Below are positions 7,818 through 17,050 of a stretch of DNA of 64,000 nt, in pieces (within the stretch, counting starts at the first letter, position 1; every line of letters begins with the position of its first letter). Made by a program: the position numbers and the translations under genes. This DNA is from Hansschlegelia quercus (GTDB taxonomy: Bacteria; Pseudomonadota; Alphaproteobacteria; Rhizobiales; Methylopilaceae): assembly GCF_004310425.1 (NCBI RefSeq), contig NZ_SIUB01000003.1, positions 1 to 64,000 on the forward strand, in the 5' to 3' direction. Below the pieces are notes generated by a model. That model had not been told where the DNA came from. It saw nothing but the letters and a program-made list of their open reading frames with translations, and did no database searches.

Positions 7818-8480
7818 TCAACCTCGCGCCGGACCGCTCCTCTGCGAACGCAAACGCAGAGATCGCACGGCGTACCCGCCGCCGGTCAGAAGCAGCATCG
7901 CGGCAAGGCTCATGATCGCGGACGCCGGATCCCGCGCGATGTCGACCAGCCGCGGTCTGACGATCGTCGCCGTGTTGAAGGTCTCGCCGCTCGAGGAGCA
8001 GATTTCGCCTGCCTCGGGCGCCGCGCGTCGACGCGCCTCGAGCCGATCGAGGATCGCGAGCGCCGACGTTGCGCCTGAGGACTCGCGGCTCATGACGAGC
8101 AGGAGTTGCTTGGCGGCCGCGAGATAGGCGTGAGCGCAGGCGTTGAAAGGGCTGTCCTCGCGCGCGACGCCGCCGGGCGCGAGGCCCCACAGGCAGTAGG
8201 CGAACTGGACGCCGTAATGATTGTAGAGCCGGCGCATGGGCCCGTCGCTTGGCGTCTGAACGCGCGCGAGCGCGATGATCTCGTCGAGGCGTTCGTCGAT
8301 CAGCGCCATCTCGCCATGCGAGATCGCGGGGATCGACAGGCCCGCTCGGAAAGCGTCGCCGGATCCCGGTGAATGAGCGGACGCTTCGCTAGGGATCGAC
8401 GTCAGCGCGACGAGGATCGCGGCCCAGGCGAGGCGCCCGAGCCGCGACCGCTTCCAAGGCTGGAGAAAGCCTTTCGTCAC
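7818..8480 (-). CDS. Unknown exported or membrane-anchored protein in the cobalt-uptake run
   Basis: 220 residues, not recognised. It starts with a basic stretch and a hydrophobic segment ending at about residue 35 (EASA-HS), consistent with a signal peptide. A second hydrophobic segment lies at about 190-207 (AIMSLAAMLLLTGGGYAV), followed by a basic tail. Most of the chain would therefore be periplasmic and anchored at its C-terminus. Cysteines occur in AYCLWG, NACAHAY and GEICSSS. The GTG start overlaps the end of cbtA by 4 bp, so it is translationally coupled; a role in cobalt delivery is a guess from position. Confidence 0.7.
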   Translation of the reverse strand: MTKGFLQPWKRSRLGRLAWAAILVALTSIPSEASAHSPGSGDAFRAGLSIPAISHGEMALIDERLDEIIALARVQTPSDGPMRRLYNHYGVQFAYCLWGLAPGGVAREDSPFNACAHAYLAAAKQLLLVMSRESSGATSALAILDRLEARRRAAPEAGEICSSSGETFNTATIVRPRLVDIARDPASAIMSLAAMLLLTGGGYAVRSLRLRSQRSGPARG

Positions 8481-9235
8481 CGCAACGCCGCTGCGCCGGC
8501 CGTATGGCGTGGCGCGTTTTCTCTACGGGCCGCGTACTCGGTCACGGCGCCGAATGCTAGGCCGACAACGCTCCAAAGCACGGCCTGGACGCCGATCGAC
8601 GCGATCCGGAAGTTCCAGAGCGCGGCCGGCGAGAACGAGGCCGGGATTTCCTCGATGTCAGGCAGGGCCGCGAACATTACCGCGACGATCGAGACATAGA
8701 CGATGGCTGCGACCGTCGCGCCGTTCCAGCCGCCGATCCGCTCCGCGAGGCGCCGGGCGAGCATCACGGACGCGATCATAAGCGCGACCGAAAACGCGAG
8801 CATCGCGAAGAACAGTTCGGTGCGCGCGACGATCGTGTCGGCGCTGCCGACCGCCGGCGGGTTGGCGGGATATTTGAGTTGCGGAACGATGACGATCGCG
8901 ACGTAACCCAGCGTCGCGATCAGGGCCGCGACCGAGCGGGGGCTCAAGCGACCGAGACGGCCATTGGCGAAGGCGAAGGCGAGCGCGATCAGTCCGCCGA
9001 CGGCGGCCCCATAGATGACGAGGCCCGTAAACAGGCCGAGACCCGCCTGCGTCGCGCGGCTGACGATCTCAGGCTCCTCCATGCCGCCGGCGGCGCCTGC
9101 GGCATGGCTCGCGTGCTCCTCGAACGCGATGGCGTAATCGACCCAAGGTTCGCCGAAGGTCCGGGCGAAGCAGAAGGCGAGAAGGCCGGCGAGCACGCCG
9201 ACCATCATGCCCCTCAGCAGAAGGTTGCCGACCAT
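8477..9235 (-). CDS. cbtA: Cobalt transporter subunit CbtA
   Basis: 252 residues with about five to six membrane segments. N-terminal GNLLLRGMMVGVLAGLLAF, the intervening FARTFGEP and the histidine-containing loop EEHASHAAGA are typical of CbtA. LKYPANPPAVG in the middle is a strongly conserved CbtA feature. CbtA and CbtB form a predicted cobalt importer usually under cobalamin control. Here it is 11 bp from cbtB and downstream of a Co-type nitrile hydratase, so its likely job is to supply the enzyme's metal. Confidence 0.92.
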   Translation of the reverse strand: MVGNLLLRGMMVGVLAGLLAFCFARTFGEPWVDYAIAFEEHASHAAGAAGGMEEPEIVSRATQAGLGLFTGLVIYGAAVGGLIALAFAFANGRLGRLSPRSVAALIATLGYVAIVIVPQLKYPANPPAVGSADTIVARTELFFAMLAFSVALMIASVMLARRLAERIGGWNGATVAAIVYVSIVAVMFAALPDIEEIPASFSPAALWNFRIASIGVQAVLWSVVGLAFGAVTEYAARRENAPRHTAGAAALR

Positions 9236-9246
9236 CTCGCTCTCCT

Positions 9247-9468
9247 TCAGTGACAGGGAAAGCCGAGCAGATGGCGGCCGTCATGCACGAACTCATGCAC
9301 GACGGAGCCTCCGATCAGCGAAGTGGCGCCTTCTTCCGCCCCGACGAAGTAGACAGTGAGGACAAGCATCAGGCCGCCGAAAACGGCCCAGGGCAGAATC
9401 TTCGAGACCGGGATCGGCTCGGCGCGCGACGGCGTCGACGCGGAAGTGGCGAATGCGGCGTTGGTCAT
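9247..9468 (-). CDS. cbtB: Cobalt transporter subunit CbtB
   Basis: A 73-residue single-span membrane protein (LPWAVFGGLMLVLTVYFVGA). The C-terminal tail VHEFVHDGRHLLGFPCH supplies the His/Cys metal ligands diagnostic of CbtB. The start at 9468 has a GGGAG ribosome site ahead of it. The gap to the upstream DUF1097 gene is only 80 bp and cannot hold a full cobalamin riboswitch. Expression therefore probably follows the nitrile hydratase promoter rather than B12. Confidence 0.93.
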   Translation of the reverse strand: MTNAAFATSASTPSRAEPIPVSKILPWAVFGGLMLVLTVYFVGAEEGATSLIGGSVVHEFVHDGRHLLGFPCH

Positions 9469-9548: not shown

Positions 9549-10070
9549 TCAGGAGGCGCGGACGGACTGTTTCGGCGCCACGCCATGGATCCAGCCAGCG
9601 AGCTTCGCCGAGACGAAGCCGAAGCAGGCCCCGATGATCATCGAAAACGGAACGATCAGAAGGGCGTTTCGGCTGGATGCCGACAGCATGATCGTGGGCG
9701 TGAAGGCGTCCGCGTTCTGCGTCAGGAACGAGAAGGTGCAGGCGTAGCCGTAGGTCACCGCCGGGATCGACGAGAAGGCGGGGATGTAGGCGGCAAGAAT
9801 GTAGATCGCGATCGACGCCGCCACGATGGTGGCGCCGAGAACAGGTCCCGGGGCAATGGTCGCGAGCGCCAGACCGGCGGACCATGCGACGACGACCCCG
9901 AAGAGGTTCGCGACGACGGTGGTCCTGAACGCGGCGGGGTCGCCGCCGCAGTGGTAGAAGCACGCCCAGGCCGCGAACGCCGCCCAGATCAGGAAGGCGT
10001 TGGTCGCGAGGAACAGCCAGGTGCACACGCCCCCGAGCAAGCCCACGCTGATTGCGAGAGGGATGATCAT
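9549..10070 (-). CDS. DUF1097 family membrane protein
   Basis: 173 residues, almost entirely hydrophobic, with about five predicted membrane segments. Its layout (short N-terminus, WAAFAAWACFYHCGGDP loop, FGVVVAWSAGLALA) matches DUF1097 proteins, whose function is not established. Members often sit beside amidase, nitrile or urea genes, so a permease role for nitriles or amides is plausible but unproven. It lies between the nitrile hydratase activator and cbtB on the same strand. Confidence 0.8.
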   Translation of the reverse strand: MIIPLAISVGLLGGVCTWLFLATNAFLIWAAFAAWACFYHCGGDPAAFRTTVVANLFGVVVAWSAGLALATIAPGPVLGATIVAASIAIYILAAYIPAFSSIPAVTYGYACTFSFLTQNADAFTPTIMLSASSRNALLIVPFSMIIGACFGFVSAKLAGWIHGVAPKQSVRAS

Positions 10071-10175: not shown

Positions 10176-10514
10176 TCAGATGACCTCGTCACGGGTGCGA
10201 TGCAGGAACTCCTCCGTCCGCCGGTCGAGTTCGTCGGCCTGGACCAGTCCCTTGTCGAGCGCGAGCTTCTCGAAGGCCGCGAGCCACTGCTCGTAATAGC
10301 TCCAGGCTTCGTCGCCAGGCTCGTGGGTCTTGTCCCACTCGCCGATGGTGCTGATCAGGCTCTTGCGGAAGTCCTCGTACGGGTAGGACTTCGCCTCGGC
10401 GAGCGCGAGCACCATGCCGAAGGCCCGGCCCTGCCATGGCTCGTCGAACTTCAGGCTCTCGCAGTTGCGCGGAATGGCCTCCCGGCCCGTGAGGTCGTCG
10501 AGATAGGCGTCCAT
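10176..10514 (-). CDS. Nitrile hydratase accessory/activator protein
   Basis: 112 residues resembling the N-terminal half of nitrile hydratase beta subunits (FDEPWQGRAFGMVLALAE, then WDKTHEPGDEAWSYYEQWLAAFEKL). This is the P14K/NhlE-type chaperone that escorts cobalt-loaded alpha subunit into the enzyme by self-subunit swapping. It follows the alpha-subunit gene by 14 bp, as expected for a Co-type operon (beta, alpha, activator). Confidence 0.9.
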   Translation of the reverse strand: MDAYLDDLTGREAIPRNCESLKFDEPWQGRAFGMVLALAEAKSYPYEDFRKSLISTIGEWDKTHEPGDEAWSYYEQWLAAFEKLALDKGLVQADELDRRTEEFLHRTRDEVI

Positions 10515-10528
10515 CGATCAGCCCTCCG

Positions 10529-11149
10529 TCAGGCCGTCGCCAGGCCGAGGCCCTGCATGGCCTCGGTGGAGACGAGCGCGGCGAGTTTCTCCTCGTCCCA
10601 ACCGTCCGTGCCGGCAGGACGTTCGGGGATGACGAAGTAGCGGACTTGGGCGCTCGAATCCCAGATCTCGATCTTGTGGTCGTCTGGCAGCTTTACGCCG
10701 AAGTCGGAGAGCACGCCGCGGGGCTCGCGCACGATGCGGGCGCGAAAGACCGGATCCTTGAACCAGTAGGGCGGCAGCCCGAGCAGCGGCCATGGCCAGC
10801 ACGAGCACAGCGTGCAGCACACCACGTTGTGGGTGCCCGGCTTGTTCTCGACGACCTTGAGGTTCTCGCCCTCGATGCCGTCGCGCATGCCGAGCTCCGC
10901 AATCGCCTTGTTGGCGTCGGCGAGAAGCCTTCCCTTGAAGGCCGGGTCAGTCCAGGCCTTGGCGACGACCTTGGCGCCGTTGAACGGCCCCATCTCATGC
11001 TCGAAGAAGTTGATGACGCGGTCGACCGTGTCGGTCCCGATGAGGCCCTTCTCGCGGAACAGGGACTCGAGCGCCTTGGTGCGCGCGGCGTAATAGGTTT
11101 CGCTCTCGCGTAGATGGTGATGATGTTCGTGGTCGTGATCGTCGCTCAT
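10529..11149 (-). CDS. nthA: Nitrile hydratase alpha subunit, cobalt type
   Basis: 206 residues. The metal site is CTLCSC at 112-117; a threonine after the first cysteine marks the cobalt rather than the iron (CSLCSC) class. An extra cysteine sits at 111. WPWPLLGLPPYWFKDP and SAQVRYFVIPERPAGTDGW are conserved alpha-subunit segments. The enzyme hydrates nitriles to amides in the cytoplasm as an alpha-beta heterotetramer. The N-terminus (residues 3-12) is rich in His and Asp, HDHEHHHH-like. The position next to CbtAB explains the cobalt supply. Confidence 0.95.
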   Translation of the reverse strand: MSDDHDHEHHHHLRESETYYAARTKALESLFREKGLIGTDTVDRVINFFEHEMGPFNGAKVVAKAWTDPAFKGRLLADANKAIAELGMRDGIEGENLKVVENKPGTHNVVCCTLCSCWPWPLLGLPPYWFKDPVFRARIVREPRGVLSDFGVKLPDDHKIEIWDSSAQVRYFVIPERPAGTDGWDEEKLAALVSTEAMQGLGLATA

Positions 11150-11213: not shown

Positions 11214-11888
11214 TCACGCCGCCTCGAGGTAGACCTCGAAGAAGTCGTTGTAGAGAACGTCGCCTTTGTCCGGGATGTCGTCCCAGAGATCGCGGGTCTT
11301 GAACTTCACCAAGTAAACCGGTTGGGCGGTGCAGATGCCGTCGGTGGGCACGTTGTCTGCGTAGAGGTAGGCGCCCTTGTAGACGGTCTCGACGATGCCG
11401 GTCCGGTTGCGGAGATAGCCCGGCAGACGGGTGTGCGCGGCGGGCGGCATGTCCTTGACGCGCACCGTGTCGCCGGTCTTGAAGATTGGGTTCACCGCGA
11501 CGTCGCGATACGGGTTCGACCCGGTGTAGAAATACTCGATCACCTTTTCGGTGACGTCGTTATCGCCGGCGTTCGGCTGCTTGGCCTCGGGGTTGTCTAG
11601 GTAGTACTTGGTCTTCTCCTCGAGTTCCTTATCCGAGATGTAGTTCCTGGAGACCAGGAACTTGCACATGCCGCCGAGCCATTTGATGTAATAGCGGTAT
11701 TTGAAGTAATCGAGTGGGTTCATGGACTCCGCGAGCACGCGCAGATCAGGCCAAGCCCAGATGCCGGTGCCCATCATTGTGGTGTGGACGGCGAAGAGTT
11801 GGGCCTCCCACGGCTCGACGAAAACGCGCTTTTCGACGTCGACGGGGCCGAGATTCTCGATGCCCCCGAGATAATGCTGGACCTTCAC
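11214..11888 (-). CDS. nthB: Nitrile hydratase beta subunit
   Basis: 224 residues, the usual size. The N-terminus (GTG start, VQHYLGGIENLGPV) and the C-terminal SH3-like barrel (FKTGDTVRVKDMPPAAHTRLPGY, then GIVETVYKGAYLYADN) are characteristic. It partners the alpha subunit downstream. A GGAGG site precedes the GTG at 11888. The gene begins about 155 bases after a leader terminator (12043-12073), so expression probably needs antitermination. It opens the nthB-nthA-activator-DUF1097-cbtB-cbtA run. Confidence 0.94.
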   Translation of the reverse strand: MKVQHYLGGIENLGPVDVEKRVFVEPWEAQLFAVHTTMMGTGIWAWPDLRVLAESMNPLDYFKYRYYIKWLGGMCKFLVSRNYISDKELEEKTKYYLDNPEAKQPNAGDNDVTEKVIEYFYTGSNPYRDVAVNPIFKTGDTVRVKDMPPAAHTRLPGYLRNRTGIVETVYKGAYLYADNVPTDGICTAQPVYLVKFKTRDLWDDIPDKGDVLYNDFFEVYLEAA

Positions 11889-12042: not shown

Positions 12043-12073
12043 AAAAAAGGCCCGTCAGCATCCTGCTGCGGGC
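12043..12073 (-). terminator. Leader terminator ahead of the nitrile hydratase operon
   Basis: On the minus strand, GCCCG-CAGCA-GGA-TGCTG-A-CGGGC forms a 10-bp hairpin with one bulged A, followed by C and six T. It lies upstream of nthB, not after a gene, so it is an attenuator rather than an end-of-operon signal. Its first three bases are also the 3' arm of the hexaloop hairpin P2. Confidence 0.75.
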
Positions 12074-12130
12074 GACTATGCCAAGTTCCTATGTTTCGCG
12101 TGATTTGCGTCTACATGGGCAGCACTGCCC
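12071..12130 (-). promoter_or_regulatory. Two-hairpin ANTAR-type RNA site in the nthB leader
   Basis: Minus strand. P1 is GGGC-AGTGCT-GCCC (12130-12117). P2 is GGC-ATAGTC-GCC (12082-12071). Both have six-base loops with A at position 1 and G at position 4, the pattern recognised by ANTAR antiterminators. The P2 3' arm is shared with the first arm of the terminator, so P2 and the terminator exclude each other. AmiR, encoded divergently, is the obvious ligand. P2 has only a 3-bp stem. Confidence 0.65.
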
Positions 12131-12143
12131 GACGCTTGCTCCC

Positions 12144-12172
12144 AGACTGATCCGCGCTGAAAAGACAGTCAA
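12144..12172 (-). promoter_or_regulatory. Candidate promoter of the nitrile hydratase operon
   Basis: TTGACT (12172-12167) and CAGTCT (12149-12144) are separated by 17 bp on the minus strand. A start near 12137 would place hairpin P1 about 7 bases into the transcript. The -10 match is weak. Confidence 0.4.
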
Positions 12173-12239
12173 GCACATTTTTTGATCGGTCCGAGCACGC
12201 TTTTCATTCGCCTGTCGCTAAGCCGAGATCGATCGCCGC

Positions 12240-12268
12240 TTGACAAGCGACGCGGACCGTTCGAGCCT
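12240..12268 (+). promoter_or_regulatory. Candidate promoter of amiC-amiR
   Basis: TTGACA (12240-12245), 17 bp, GAGCCT (12263-12268). The -10 is weak but has the same form as the one on the opposite strand (xAGxCT). P1 begins 14 bases after it, against 13 in the nthB leader, so the two leaders have matching geometry. Confidence 0.4.
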
Positions 12269-12282
12269 AAGATATAGGCGCG

Positions 12283-12362
12283 GGGCAACGATGCCCGATT
12301 GAGCGCCATGCGTTTCGATAGATATCAAGGCGCGGACGTTGTCCGCGTCAGGCAGCGACGCC
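12283..12362 (+). promoter_or_regulatory. Two-hairpin ANTAR-type RNA site in the amiC leader
   Basis: P1 is GGGC-AACGAT-GCCC (12283-12296). P2 is GGC-AGCGAC-GCC (12351-12362). Both hexaloops have A1 and G4. The last three bases of P2 (12360-12362) are the first three of the terminator stem, so formation of P2 blocks the terminator. The linker between P1 and P2 is 54 bases. A longer stem in the linker (CGCGGAC/GTCCGCG, 12331-12347) may bring them together. Confidence 0.65.
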
Positions 12363-12390
12363 CTCAAGCCTCCCGGCTCGAGGGCTTTTT
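12360..12390 (+). terminator. Leader terminator ahead of amiC
   Basis: GCCCTC-A-AGCC, loop TCCC, GGCT-C-GAGGGC, then five T. The stem is 10 bp with one A/C mismatch. It ends 15 bases before the amiC start codon and cannot be the end of another plus-strand gene, so it acts as an attenuator. Confidence 0.8.
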
Positions 12391-12405: not shown

Positions 12406-13563
12406 ATGACGACGACTGACAGCTACCGCATCGGCCTGATGTTTTCCTCGACAGGGCCCTACAGCTCGGTCGCGAGCCCCATGCTGAACGGAGCGTTGCT
12501 CGCGGTCTCCGAAGTCAACGCCGGCGCCGCGATCAAGCTCGACCCTGTCATGGTGAACCCTGGCGGCGACCTCACCCGCTATGGTCCTCTGAGCTCACAA
12601 TTGCTGTCGTCCGGCATCCGGCAGGTCGTCGGCTGCTACACCTCATCAAGCCGGAAGGAAGTCATTCCGGTTTTCGAAAAGCACGACGGCCTGCTCTGGT
12701 ATCCGTCGCACTACGAAGGCTTCGAGAGCTCCGAGAACGTCGTGTATACAGGCGCGGCCCCGAACCAGCACATCCTCCCGCTGATTGACTACCTGATGTC
12801 GTCCCATGGCGATCGGGCGTTCTGCGTCGGCTCCAACTACATCTGGGCTTGGGAGAACAACCGCATCTTGCGGGAGGTCGTCGTCGCTCGCGGCGGGACG
12901 GTGCTGGCGGAGCGCTATTTGCCGGTCGGCGAGACCGATTTCGCCAAGACCATAGAGGCGATCCTCGCGGCCAGGCCGAGCTTCGTGTTCTCGTCTCTCA
13001 TCGGCCTCAGCGGATATGTCTTCATCCGCAGCCTGCGCGAGGCCTGCCTCGCGCGCGGGATCAATCAACCGGGCGTAATGCCGGTCGCAAGCTGCAATCT
13101 GAACGAGCCCGACCTGATCGACATCGGCGGCGCGGCCATGGACGGCCACATCAGCTCAAGCGTCTATTTTTCGTCGCTGCCGACGTCAGAGAGCCGGACC
13201 TTCGTCGCGAGCTACGCCGCCGCCTATCCAGACAAGCCCTGGGCGTCGGCCGACGCGGAGGCCTCCTACATCGCAGTCAAGCTTTTGGCCGCCGCCCTTT
13301 CGGAAGCCCGCAGCGACGAAATCGGCGTAGTGCGGCGGGCGCTTGGCCATCAGCGCCTGAACGCCCCGCAGGGCGAGGTTCTGGTCGACGCCGACACCAT
13401 GCACCTCTACCTCACGCCGCGCATAGGCCGGTCCCGCGCGGACGGGAGCTTCGACGTCATCCGCCAGGAGCCGGCGGCAATCCGGCCCGATCCCTACCTC
13501 GTCAGCTTTTCCGCGACGGACGCCTGGGGCTCGCCTGCCTCCCGTCTGCGGGCGGTGAACTGA
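12406..13563 (+). CDS. amiC: AmiC-type amide-sensing periplasmic-binding-fold protein
   Basis: 385 residues of the type I periplasmic-binding fold without a signal peptide, so cytoplasmic. YRIGLMFSSTGPYSSV opens the fold; VVGCYTSSSRKEVIPVFEKHDGLLWYPSHYEGFESSENVVYTG is the ligand-pocket region seen in AmiC and urea/amide-binding relatives. AmiC binds amides and releases AmiR from an inactive complex. ATG 12406 is preferred to an upstream GTG (12391) that abuts the terminator. It overlaps amiR by one base (TGATG), giving fixed stoichiometry. Confidence 0.88.
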   Translation: MTTTDSYRIGLMFSSTGPYSSVASPMLNGALLAVSEVNAGAAIKLDPVMVNPGGDLTRYGPLSSQLLSSGIRQVVGCYTSSSRKEVIPVFEKHDGLLWYPSHYEGFESSENVVYTGAAPNQHILPLIDYLMSSHGDRAFCVGSNYIWAWENNRILREVVVARGGTVLAERYLPVGETDFAKTIEAILAARPSFVFSSLIGLSGYVFIRSLREACLARGINQPGVMPVASCNLNEPDLIDIGGAAMDGHISSSVYFSSLPTSESRTFVASYAAAYPDKPWASADAEASYIAVKLLAAALSEARSDEIGVVRRALGHQRLNAPQGEVLVDADTMHLYLTPRIGRSRADGSFDVIRQEPAAIRPDPYLVSFSATDAWGSPASRLRAVN

Positions 13564-14213
13564 TGACCCTGTCGCCAGTCCAGAATTTCCGCGGGATGCG
13601 GGCTTTGATCTTCGCCTCCGGAGAAGGCGGCATAGACACGCTCGCGTCGGTGCTGAACAAACTTGGGCTTGCCGTAGAGCGTCCCGGCGTTCCGGCGAAC
13701 GCCGCGGCGGTCGATGCGTCTTCGTTCGATTCCGCCCGCGACGTTCTGTTCATCGACGGAGACCTTGAGGGCGTCCTGGAGCCGAGCGCGATCAAGGCCG
13801 GATTGCCGCCTGTGGCCGTCATCGGTCTCGTCGGCGTCGAGGCGCCGAGTCGACTGAAGGGGCTGATGCTGCAAGGGGCCACGGCCTTCCTGCGCAAGCC
13901 GGTCTATGCCGGCGCCGTGTACACTACGCTGTTCCTTGGCGTGAACCAGTATCTTCAGCGCAAGACGCTCGCCGATCAGCTAAGCGAGCATCAGGACCGG
14001 CGGCGCCGTCGCCGGCTGGTGATCAAGACTATCGTTCGCATCATGGAAGAGCATGCGATCGACGACGACGAGGCCTACGCGTTCCTGCGCCGGGACAGCA
14101 TGCGCAGCCGCCTCAGCCTCGAGGATTACTGCGAACAGCAACTCGCCTGCCGGTCAGAGCCGACCGGATCTTCTGAAAACGCGCCTGTCGAGCTGACGCT
14201 CGCGCGGCGCTGA
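13563..14213 (+). CDS. amiR: AmiR-type antiterminator with ANTAR domain
   Basis: 216 residues. An N-terminal receiver-like domain lacks the usual phosphoacceptor pattern, as in AmiR (ALIFASGEGGIDTLASVL, LKGLMLQGATAFLRKPV). A coiled-coil linker follows (LADQLSEHQDRRRRRRLVIK). The C-terminal ANTAR domain runs from about 150 to 200 (MEEHAIDDDEAYAFLRRDSMRS). ANTAR proteins bind paired hexaloop RNA hairpins and prevent termination. Two such sites with terminators lie just upstream, one in each direction. Induction by amides through AmiC is inferred from the Pseudomonas system. Confidence 0.9.
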   Translation: MTLSPVQNFRGMRALIFASGEGGIDTLASVLNKLGLAVERPGVPANAAAVDASSFDSARDVLFIDGDLEGVLEPSAIKAGLPPVAVIGLVGVEAPSRLKGLMLQGATAFLRKPVYAGAVYTTLFLGVNQYLQRKTLADQLSEHQDRRRRRRLVIKTIVRIMEEHAIDDDEAYAFLRRDSMRSRLSLEDYCEQQLACRSEPTGSSENAPVELTLARR

Positions 14214-14331: not shown

Positions 14332-15321
14332 ATGAGTTGGCTCGAAAATTCCATCATGGCAGCGCGCGGCGAAGCGAAGGGTCTTGCTGGTCAGACCTTC
14401 TCGATCACCGAGGAAAGTCAGGGGAAGTACCACTACGTCTACGGGCCCTACGCCGAGCCGATCCTGCGGGTTGATCCGGGGGCGGTAGTCTCCGCTGAAA
14501 CCCATGACGCCATGGAAGGCCAGATCAAAAGCGAGAGTGACAGTCCCAGCGCGATCCTGAACTTCCCGTTCCTTAATCCGCAGAACGGCCCGATCTTCGT
14601 CAACGGCGCAGAGAAGGGCGACTGCCTCGCGGTCTACATCCGCAAGATCGTTCCGCGCGGTCCGCAGCCGGTCGGCACCACCTGCATCATGCCTGAGTTT
14701 GGCGGGCTTGTCGGCACTGGCGACACCGCCATCCTCAATCCGCCGCTGCCTGAGATCGTCAAGAAGGTCGAGGTCACCCCGGAGAAGGGCGTGGTATGGA
14801 ACGACAAGATCACGCTGCCCTACCAGCCGTTCATCGGCACGATTGGGACCTCGCCCGAGATCGAGGCGATCTCATCCCTCGTCCCCGATTATTACGGCGG
14901 CAACATGGATCTGCCGGACGTTGGCCCCGGCGCGGTGATTTACCTGCCGGTGCATGCGCCGGGCGCGCTGCTCTATCTCGGCGACTGCCACGCCACGCAG
15001 GGAGACGGGGAAATCTGCGGTTTCGCAATCGAGCATCCGACCGTCACCACGATCCAGATCGATCTCATCAAGAACTGGACGTTCCGTTGGCCGAGGCTCG
15101 AAACCGAAGGATTGATCATGACGATCGGTTCGGGTCGACCGATGGAGGACGCCGCCCGGATCGCCTATCGGGAGCTTGTCCGCTGGATGGCCGCCGACTA
15201 CGGCTATGACGAACTCGACGCGTATATGCTGCTCACGCAGGCGGGTAAGCTGCGGGTCGGGAACATGGTGGATCCCAAATACACTTTGGGCGCTTCCGTA
15301 TCGAAGACCCTGCTAGGTTAG
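14332..15321 (+). CDS. Acetamidase/formamidase family amidohydrolase
   Basis: 329 residues of the FmdA/AmdA family. Landmarks are VDPGAVVSAETHDAMEGQ, where the DxxxG/Cys-Asp core lies, FVNGAEKGDCLAVYI and GALLYLGDCHATQGDGEICG, which is the hallmark histidine/aspartate stretch. These enzymes hydrolyse short aliphatic amides to acid and ammonia. It follows amiR by 118 bp with GAGGAG before the ATG. It completes the route nitrile to amide to acid begun by the nitrile hydratase. Confidence 0.92.
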   Translation: MSWLENSIMAARGEAKGLAGQTFSITEESQGKYHYVYGPYAEPILRVDPGAVVSAETHDAMEGQIKSESDSPSAILNFPFLNPQNGPIFVNGAEKGDCLAVYIRKIVPRGPQPVGTTCIMPEFGGLVGTGDTAILNPPLPEIVKKVEVTPEKGVVWNDKITLPYQPFIGTIGTSPEIEAISSLVPDYYGGNMDLPDVGPGAVIYLPVHAPGALLYLGDCHATQGDGEICGFAIEHPTVTTIQIDLIKNWTFRWPRLETEGLIMTIGSGRPMEDAARIAYRELVRWMAADYGYDELDAYMLLTQAGKLRVGNMVDPKYTLGASVSKTLLG

Positions 15322-15833: not shown

Positions 15834-16286
15834 GAACGCCGACCCCGGAGCGCTTCTTCGAGCTTTGGGTCTTCCTCTCCGCGAATCCCTTGCTGTGGCT
15901 CACCGTCACGATCGGCACGTTTCTGGCCGCCCAGGCTCGCGGCGCTCGCGCGCTTCAACCCGCTGATCAATCCGGTGCTGCTCTCGATCGTCGCGATCGT
16001 TATCGTGCTGCAGCTCACGGACACGGATTACAGGACTTATTTCGAAGGCGCCCAATTCGTGCATTTCGCGCTCGGACCGGCCACCGTCGCGCTCGGCGTA
16101 TCGCTCTACCGCAACCGCAATCTCGTGAAGCGCGACGCCCTGCCGATCGTCGCTGCCCTGCTGGTCGGCGCGCCGGTCGCGTGCCGGTCCGTGATCGGTC
16201 TCGCCAGATTGTTTGGCGTCGACGCCGGCGCCATCGCGGCGCTTGCGCTCAAGTCAGTGACCGTCAGCATCGCGCTCGGCATTGTC
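15830..16286 (+). pseudogene. LrgB family protein, frameshifted and truncated
   Basis: Starts as a normal LrgB (FFELWVFLSANPLLWLTVTIGTF). It loses frame near 15935-15950 and continues in another frame (LARFNPLINPVLLSIVAIVIVLQ to DAGAIAALALKSVTVSIALGI). It stops being LrgB at about 16281-16286, where antisense transposase sequence begins. The family needs a further hundred or so residues (including the PKSVT-containing half), so it is certainly non-functional. Confidence 0.85.
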
Positions 16287-16969
16287 GATCAGGTAGTTGG
16301 TGGCGTAGGCGAAGAAGGCGTGGCCCTTGTGCGCGCCAGTCCACTGCGCAGCCGGATCAGACCGCGAGACGAACTTCGGCGTCGTCTCGCTCGCCGCGCC
16401 CCAGGCCGCCTCGTCGAGCGTGTCGAGGTACTCGCGGACGGCACGGCGGGATGCCGCAAGCTCTTCCCAGTCGACCTCGTCCACGCCGTCCGCCGAGCGC
16501 TGCCGGTTGGCGTCGGCCCGGATCAGGCTGGCGTCGACCGCGAAGCCGTCGTCGCCGACGAGGCCCTCCGTCATGCAGCGCCGGACGACGGTCTCGAACA
16601 GCTTGCGCAGCAGGTCGCTGTCGCGGAAGCGGCCGTGGCGGTTTTTGAGAAGGTCGAGTGGTGCGGCACGTCGCCGTCGAGGGCGAGCCGGCAGAACCAG
16701 CGGTAGGCGAGGTTCAGGTGAACCTCCTCGCAAAGCCGCCGCTCCGAGCGGACGCCGAAGCAGTAGCCGACGAGCAGCATCCGGATCAGCAACTCCGGAT
16801 CGATCGAGGGTCGCCCCGTCGAGCTGTAGAACGGAGCGAGCTCTCGCCGCACCTCCGACAGGTCGACGAACCGGTCGATCGCCCTCAGCAGATGGTCCTC
16901 CGGCACATGCCGCTCGAGCGAGAACTCGTAGAACAAGGCCGCCTGGTCGACCTGCCGCTCGCCCATCAT
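16282..16969 (-). pseudogene. Transposase, IS1182-like (DUF772 N-terminal), frameshifted and truncated
   Basis: The N-terminal half reads MMGERQVDQAALFYEFSLE through RPSIDPELLIRMLLVGYCFG and HLNLAYRWFCRLALDGDVP, a common rhizobial-type transposase. At about 16640-16650 the frame breaks at a run of five A; the downstream frame (LKNRHGRFRDSDLL, VDASLIRADANRQRSADG) restores the family sequence. It ends at TNYLID where lrgB begins. A missing A in the run is the simplest cause. Nonfunctional. Confidence 0.8.
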
Positions 16970-17050
16970 CGCCGATGCCCTCCACCCGCATGACGGAGTG
17001 AATCAGCGACGGCGCCTCGCTTCAACGACGGAGTTTTTCAACACAATCGG
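16282..17050. mobile_element. IS remnant (IS1182-like transposase) truncating lrgB
   Basis: Contains a minus-strand transposase whose 3' part is missing at the lrgB junction (about 16282). The outer end is probably the GGAGTTTTTCAACACAATCG stretch at 17030-17049. The matching inverted repeat at the other end is absent, so the element cannot move. The rest of lrgB is not found on the far side, implying a deletion after insertion. Confidence 0.7.

Follow-up and report, generated by a model that had tools for sequence, protein, structure and literature searches.

The intergenic region between the divergent genes nthB and amiC of Hansschlegelia quercus encodes two leader RNAs that, to judge from sequence, are very probably antitermination switches controlled by AmiR, with AmiR released by amide acting on both the nitrile hydratase operon and the amidase operon. 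Since the paired leaders are conserved in about ten related loci, one amide sensor probably switches both operons. Such control of both operons had been proposed from a reading of the window (the whole stretch of DNA analysed, 64 kb) alone, and it is supported by the ANTAR/AmiR fold of the regulator, the conservation of loops and stems across ten loci, and covariation; it is also backed by the lack of strong leader matches in those genomes of the family that do not carry this AmiR.

Two leaders between nthB and amiC

Direct reading of the sequence shows, between nthB (minus strand) and amiC (plus strand), a promoter-like element and a leader on each strand, the two units pointing away from each other. 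Each leader consists of a hexaloop hairpin with a 4-bp stem (P1), a second hexaloop hairpin with a 3-bp stem (P2), and an intrinsic terminator. All four loops in the window have A at position 1 (A1) and G at position 4 (G4), and in both leaders the terminator begins, at its 5' end, with the 3' arm of P2, so that P2 and the terminator are mutually exclusive. The hairpins and terminators of the original prediction, its A1/G4 loops and its overlap of P2 with the terminator are all confirmed at their positions, and the gap of 13-14 bases that it gave between promoter and P1 corresponds to 13 and 14 bases from the −10-like hexamers. Its picture of leaders flanking the amiC-amiR pair needs correction, as both sit together in the nthB-amiC intergenic region. 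It also overlooked the two-tier form of P1: the hexaloop hairpin tops a longer structure, with a lower stem of 4-5 bp and a 3' bulge beneath it in both leaders.

On the minus strand, the predicted promoter of the nitrile hydratase operon (TTGACT-N17-CAGTCT, 12144-12172) has its −35 hexamer TTGACT at 12172-12167 and its −10-like hexamer CAGTCT at 12149-12144, and TTGAC and a −10-like element are kept in the aligned loci. The two-tier P1 of this nth leader (12107-12135), with covariation in both tiers, is formed by the lower stem GCGTC/GACGC, a 5-nt 3' bulge (ATGTA) and the upper hairpin GGGC(AGTGCT)GCCC (12130-12117). After the lower stem comes a 24-nt spacer (12083-12106; 34 nt from upper P1 to P2), whose spacing is kept in most of the ten loci and whose sequence varies, and then P2, the predicted antiterminator hairpin GGC(ATAGTC)GCC (12082-12071), which was located by reading and by the descriptor given below. 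The 5' arm of the intrinsic terminator (12043-12073; GCCCGCAGCA..TGCTGaCGGGC at 12073-12050, U6 at 12048-12043) contains the 3' arm of P2. On the plus strand, the predicted promoter of the amiC operon (TTGACA-N17-GAGCCT, 12240-12268; −35 TTGACA at 12240-12245, −10-like GAGCCT at 12263-12268) is kept in homologous leaders. It is followed by a covarying two-tier P1 (12277-12307; lower stem GGCGC/GCGCC with a 3' bulge, upper hairpin GGGC(AACGAT)GCCC at 12283-12296), a middle hairpin in the P1-P2 linker (12329-12349) that folds at −14.7 kcal/mol and ends 1 nt before P2, the predicted antiterminator hairpin P2 itself (GGC(AGCGAC)GCC, 12351-12362; read from the sequence and matched by the descriptor), and an intrinsic terminator seen in sequence and folding (12360-12390; stem 12360-12385, U5 tract to 12390). 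Folded alone, P2 has an energy of −2.8 kcal/mol, against −15.8 and −17.9 kcal/mol for the terminators; because P2 is so weak beside them, termination would be the default and a protein would be needed to hold P2.

The linker between upper P1 and P2 in the window, likewise overlooked in the original prediction, is 34 nt in the nth leader and 54 nt in the amiC leader. Most nth leaders share the 34-nt linker, and most amiC leaders have one of 43-54 nt (longer in one); nearly all amiC leaders carry a linker hairpin ending 1-2 nt before P2, and the few without it have a spacer near 20 nt. The linkers of eut sites measure 5-12 nt, and one of 14 nt strongly lowered induction by EutV (PMC3369931); both window leaders lie outside this 5-12 nt range. 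Since linker length was free to vary in the published search motif (PMC3369931), the short linker is a property of EutV sites and not a definition of the family. Either AmiR tolerates or needs another spacing, or the folded linker shortens the distance.

Rarity and conservation of the leaders

A descriptor requiring a 4-bp P1, a 3-bp P2 overlapping the 5' arm of the terminator, A1 and G4 in both loops, and a T-run matched the two leaders and nothing else on either strand of the 64-kb window, and gave no match in 100 dinucleotide shuffles. With a looser dual-loop pattern the 3.6 Mb genome has four matches, of which these leaders are two. The leader covariance model, whose training set consists partly of these very sequences, scores them at 93.8 and 90.2 bits; the next best match in the genome reaches 26 bits. 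Weak genome matches of 17-26 bits (on contigs C17, C11 and C7) fall on a gene-end terminator and GC-rich stretches, and were taken as chance. A search of the window at Rfam gathering thresholds returned no match, so there is no library family for comparison.

A survey of one genome per species carrying AmiC yielded 80 loci. In ten of these (L028-L037), from genera that include Methylopila, Chelatococcus, Ancylobacter, Hansschlegelia, Xanthobacter, Kaistia and Azospirillum, nitrile hydratase genes are divergent from amiC-amiR-fmdA, and both leaders are present in all ten. Most of the remaining AmiC loci have fmdA about 5 kb downstream of amiC-amiR, with an ABC transporter between them in annotated examples, and the amiC leader is retained in relatives without nitrile hydratase. 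Loops were counted in nine of the ten loci plus the window, one near-duplicate being left out (40 loops): 37 carry A at position 1 and 39 carry G at position 4, and the other loop positions are more variable. The exceptions are G1 in the nth P1 of L028 and L036 and in the amiC P2 of L033, and T4 in the amiC P2 of L036. In one Beijerinckiaceae MAG (L037:5610-5703, minus strand), the loops of nth P1 and P2 are kept, and the closing arm of the terminator and the T-run are lost. Amongst Bradyrhizobium and Rhodopseudomonas amiC leaders (L038, L039, L042, L048, L067, L082 and similar ones), the P1 stem and A1 are kept, G4 is often absent, and the P2 loop often begins with G; this clade possibly has a different loop specificity.

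The stems vary in a compensatory manner. In nth P1, three sequences have AU in place of GC in the upper stem, and two have CG in place of UA in the lower stem. Across the nth and amiC leader families together, 99% of the cells are paired, with 21 double-changed cells compared with 7.8 in shuffled and at most 5 in slid alignments. An alignment of 43 amiC leaders has P2 and the upper stem of P1 paired in every sequence and contains 42 double-changed cells; single positions of the lower P1 stem take five or six different pair types. These compensatory changes are mostly concentrated at few pairs. The terminator pair 90-108 differs between the nth and amiC leader families; the amiC P2 stem is invariant in the 43 sequences and so gives no covariation information. 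The four originally predicted hairpins are, in short, conserved: both leaders are kept in ten related loci, and their P1 stems covary. Short GC hairpins are frequent in such genomes, and the leaders might be supposed to be chance GC-rich structures beside ordinary terminators; the empty shuffles, together with conservation and covariation across genera, make this extremely unlikely, and as far as sequence allows it is already refuted by the conservation.

Conservation also bears on a narrower reading, in which AmiR controls the amiC leader alone, its nth counterpart being a copy that is decaying or is regulated at the DNA level. The broken nth terminator of L037, the variation at P1 loop position 1 in two loci, and the fact that most proteobacterial nitrile hydratases have no nearby ANTAR gene are consistent with this reading. 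It is nonetheless improbable, given that nth P2 has A1 and G4 in all ten sequences and nth P1 has G4 in all ten, that the 34-nt spacing holds in most loci, and that the nth stems covary and the promoter is kept.

AmiC, AmiR and the neighbouring genes

AmiC (12406-13563, plus strand; Peripla_BP_5) is an amide-sensor protein of the AmiC/urea-binding type, in which we saw no signal peptide by eye. It matches solved AmiC structures with an E-value of 4e-66; because urea-type (ABC) binding proteins match well too, these structure matches do not fix its ligand. The start of amiR (13563-14213, plus strand) overlaps the stop of amiC, and its product comprises a pseudo-receiver, a coiled coil and an ANTAR RNA-binding domain. 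The ANTAR domain (PF03861) scores 37.3 bits against a cut-off of 27.3, the Pfam AmiR_N domain falls below its cut-off (20.1 against 27), and the sequence is remote from known AmiR (phmmer E 1.5e-4). An AlphaFold model (mean pLDDT 85.7) has as its best match the full-length AmiR of the AmiC-AmiR complex (1qo0; TM 0.68/0.75), followed by EutV-RNA; by this predicted fold, the protein is a genuine ANTAR protein with pseudo-receiver and coiled coil. The RNA-contact residues R168, M172 and R175 of EutV (PMC8934654) align with R176, M180 and R183 of AmiR, which are near-invariant in 32 relatives.

Downstream of amiR lies a gene for an FmdA-type formamidase/acetamidase (14332-15321, plus strand; Pfam PF03069, below the NCBIfam equivalog cut-off). 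In the opposite direction, all on the minus strand, are nthB (11214-11888; nitrile hydratase beta subunit, GTG start, Pfam NHase_beta N and C, TIGR03888), nthA (10529-11149; alpha subunit, Pfam NHase_alpha, TIGR01323), a nitrile hydratase accessory protein (10176-10514; TIGR03889), a DUF1097 membrane protein that is kept in the operon in related loci (9549-10070), and a cobalt transporter region (8477-9465) made up of the CbtA subunit (8477-9235) and, upstream of it, a CbtB-like small protein that scores below cut-off (9247-9465). The NthA sequence contains the motif CTLCSC, which we take to be that of cobalt-type nitrile hydratases. Further along the window, at 15975-16991, an LrgB-like reading frame after lrgA is apparently broken by minus-strand transposase-like reading frames. 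A second nitrile hydratase alpha gene (C9:73895-74437), lying about 10 kb past the end of the window, has no leader-model match. Besides amiR the genome has a single ANTAR gene; it is NasT-like and stands with a NasS-like gene at about 197 kb of contig C12, with a hairpin and T-run downstream.

Within the family, the leader model scores 90-99 bits in five genomes only, which are exactly those with this AmiR; the others reach at most 30 bits. The genome that reaches 30 bits (G010) carries a remote amiC-amiR pair immediately upstream of nthAB, and its match lies between the two; in G096 the order nthBA-DUF1097-amiC-amiR runs in one direction, with a weak match just before nthB. With the divergent loci, these two genomes show amiC-amiR and nitrile hydratase joined in three gene orders. 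The two orders other than the divergent one, with the regulators upstream or downstream, are those of L143:711-4080 and L144:5361-9993, each with a leader-like match. Among 57 other genomes of the phylum sample, compared by eye, no ANTAR gene was found near nitrile hydratase, and the leader model has no match at the other nitrile hydratases of this genome (C9, 73.9 kb), G014 (C8) or G017 (C59).

The same comparison speaks to the signal. The genome's NasT-like gene stands beside a NasS-like gene, and A1/G4 loops are common to ANTAR sites; on these grounds the leaders could be sites bound by nitrate-responsive NasT, the signal being nitrate and not amide. We consider this very improbable: there is no strong leader match in family genomes that have an ANTAR gene and lack a close AmiR (for example G016, which has nitrile hydratase), and the leaders always adjoin amiC-amiR. 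Amide-released AmiR is the regulator retained below.

A Klebsiella plasmid amiC-amiR operon (L172:3440-3490), of a kind common to very many plasmid records, has a leader terminator with an AATGAA hexaloop overlapping its 5' arm. For the P. aeruginosa amiE leader, the plasmid collection gave no match of useful similarity.

Discussion

The AmiC-AmiR system responds to amides (PMC3369931). Observed here are the RNA elements, how they are conserved, and the families to which the proteins belong; AmiR binding, release by amide and readthrough we infer, as follows. On each strand transcription would start just before P1. When amide is absent, AmiR would be held by AmiC, and the terminator would fold in each leader. 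Binding of a short amide to AmiC would free AmiR, which would dimerise and bind P1 and P2 at their A1/G4 hexaloops; P2, thus stabilised, would take the 5' arm of the terminator, and RNA polymerase would read through. One sensor would in this way induce its own operon, amiC-amiR-fmdA, which would turn amide into acid and ammonia, and the divergent operon for nitrile hydratase and cobalt uptake, which would convert nitrile to amide. Amide, as the product of nitrile hydratase and the substrate of the amidase, would induce both operons in a positive loop.

As in the known AmiC-AmiR system, the sensor AmiC and the ANTAR antiterminator AmiR are encoded with an amidase, and the leader bears a terminator; unlike in that system, the amidase is of the FmdA type, the AmiR sequence is remote, and a separate leader serves a second, divergent target (nitrile hydratase and cobalt uptake). 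The dual-hexaloop RNA of Enterococcus faecalis EutV (PMC3369931, PMC8934654) similarly has two A1/G4 hexaloop hairpins, with P2 overlapping the 5' arm of the terminator. The leaders described here differ from it in their linkers (34 or 54 nt versus 5-12), in the lower stem with 3' bulge that carries P1, and in the amiC linker hairpin, and the sensor partnered with the ANTAR protein is a binding protein in place of a histidine kinase. Closer in logic are the NasS-NasT leaders (nas, nos; PMC6759348), in which a binding-protein sensor frees an ANTAR protein that targets leader terminators, with several targets per cell; the signal and the target genes differ, however, and the NasT of this genome belongs to a separate pair, with no model match at its locus. 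Nitrile hydratase clusters of Rhodococcus (pNit, R. rhodochrous BAA870) also have an AmiC-like protein upstream of nthBA, a nickel/cobalt transporter and an amidase, but their AmiC-like protein neighbours an ArsR-type helix-turn-helix protein instead of an ANTAR protein.

There is precedent for antitermination by AmiC-AmiR, for dual hairpins as ANTAR sites and for ANTAR regulons. A report of ANTAR antitermination of nitrile hydratase was not found in the searchable literature, which leaves subscription papers outside, and the supplementary hit tables of PMC3369931 could list a case; within this literature, nitrile hydratase as a target of AmiC-AmiR and the present RNA geometry appear new. We see an even chance that the leaders represent an AmiR-class geometry unlike that of EutV (P1 as the tip of a two-tier hairpin, P2 34-54 nt away, and the distance fixed by a single-stranded spacer of about 20-24 nt plus an optional hairpin abutting P2), combined with a single regulator driving two divergent operons for consecutive steps of nitrile use. 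The conserved long linkers offer natural variants for probing how ANTAR dimers bridge two hairpins, a question for which current models are mainly based on EutV. Nitrile hydratase is an industrial enzyme, and RNA control by an amide sensor, if true, would provide a compact inducible switch and would explain induction by the product, amide, in these alphaproteobacteria.
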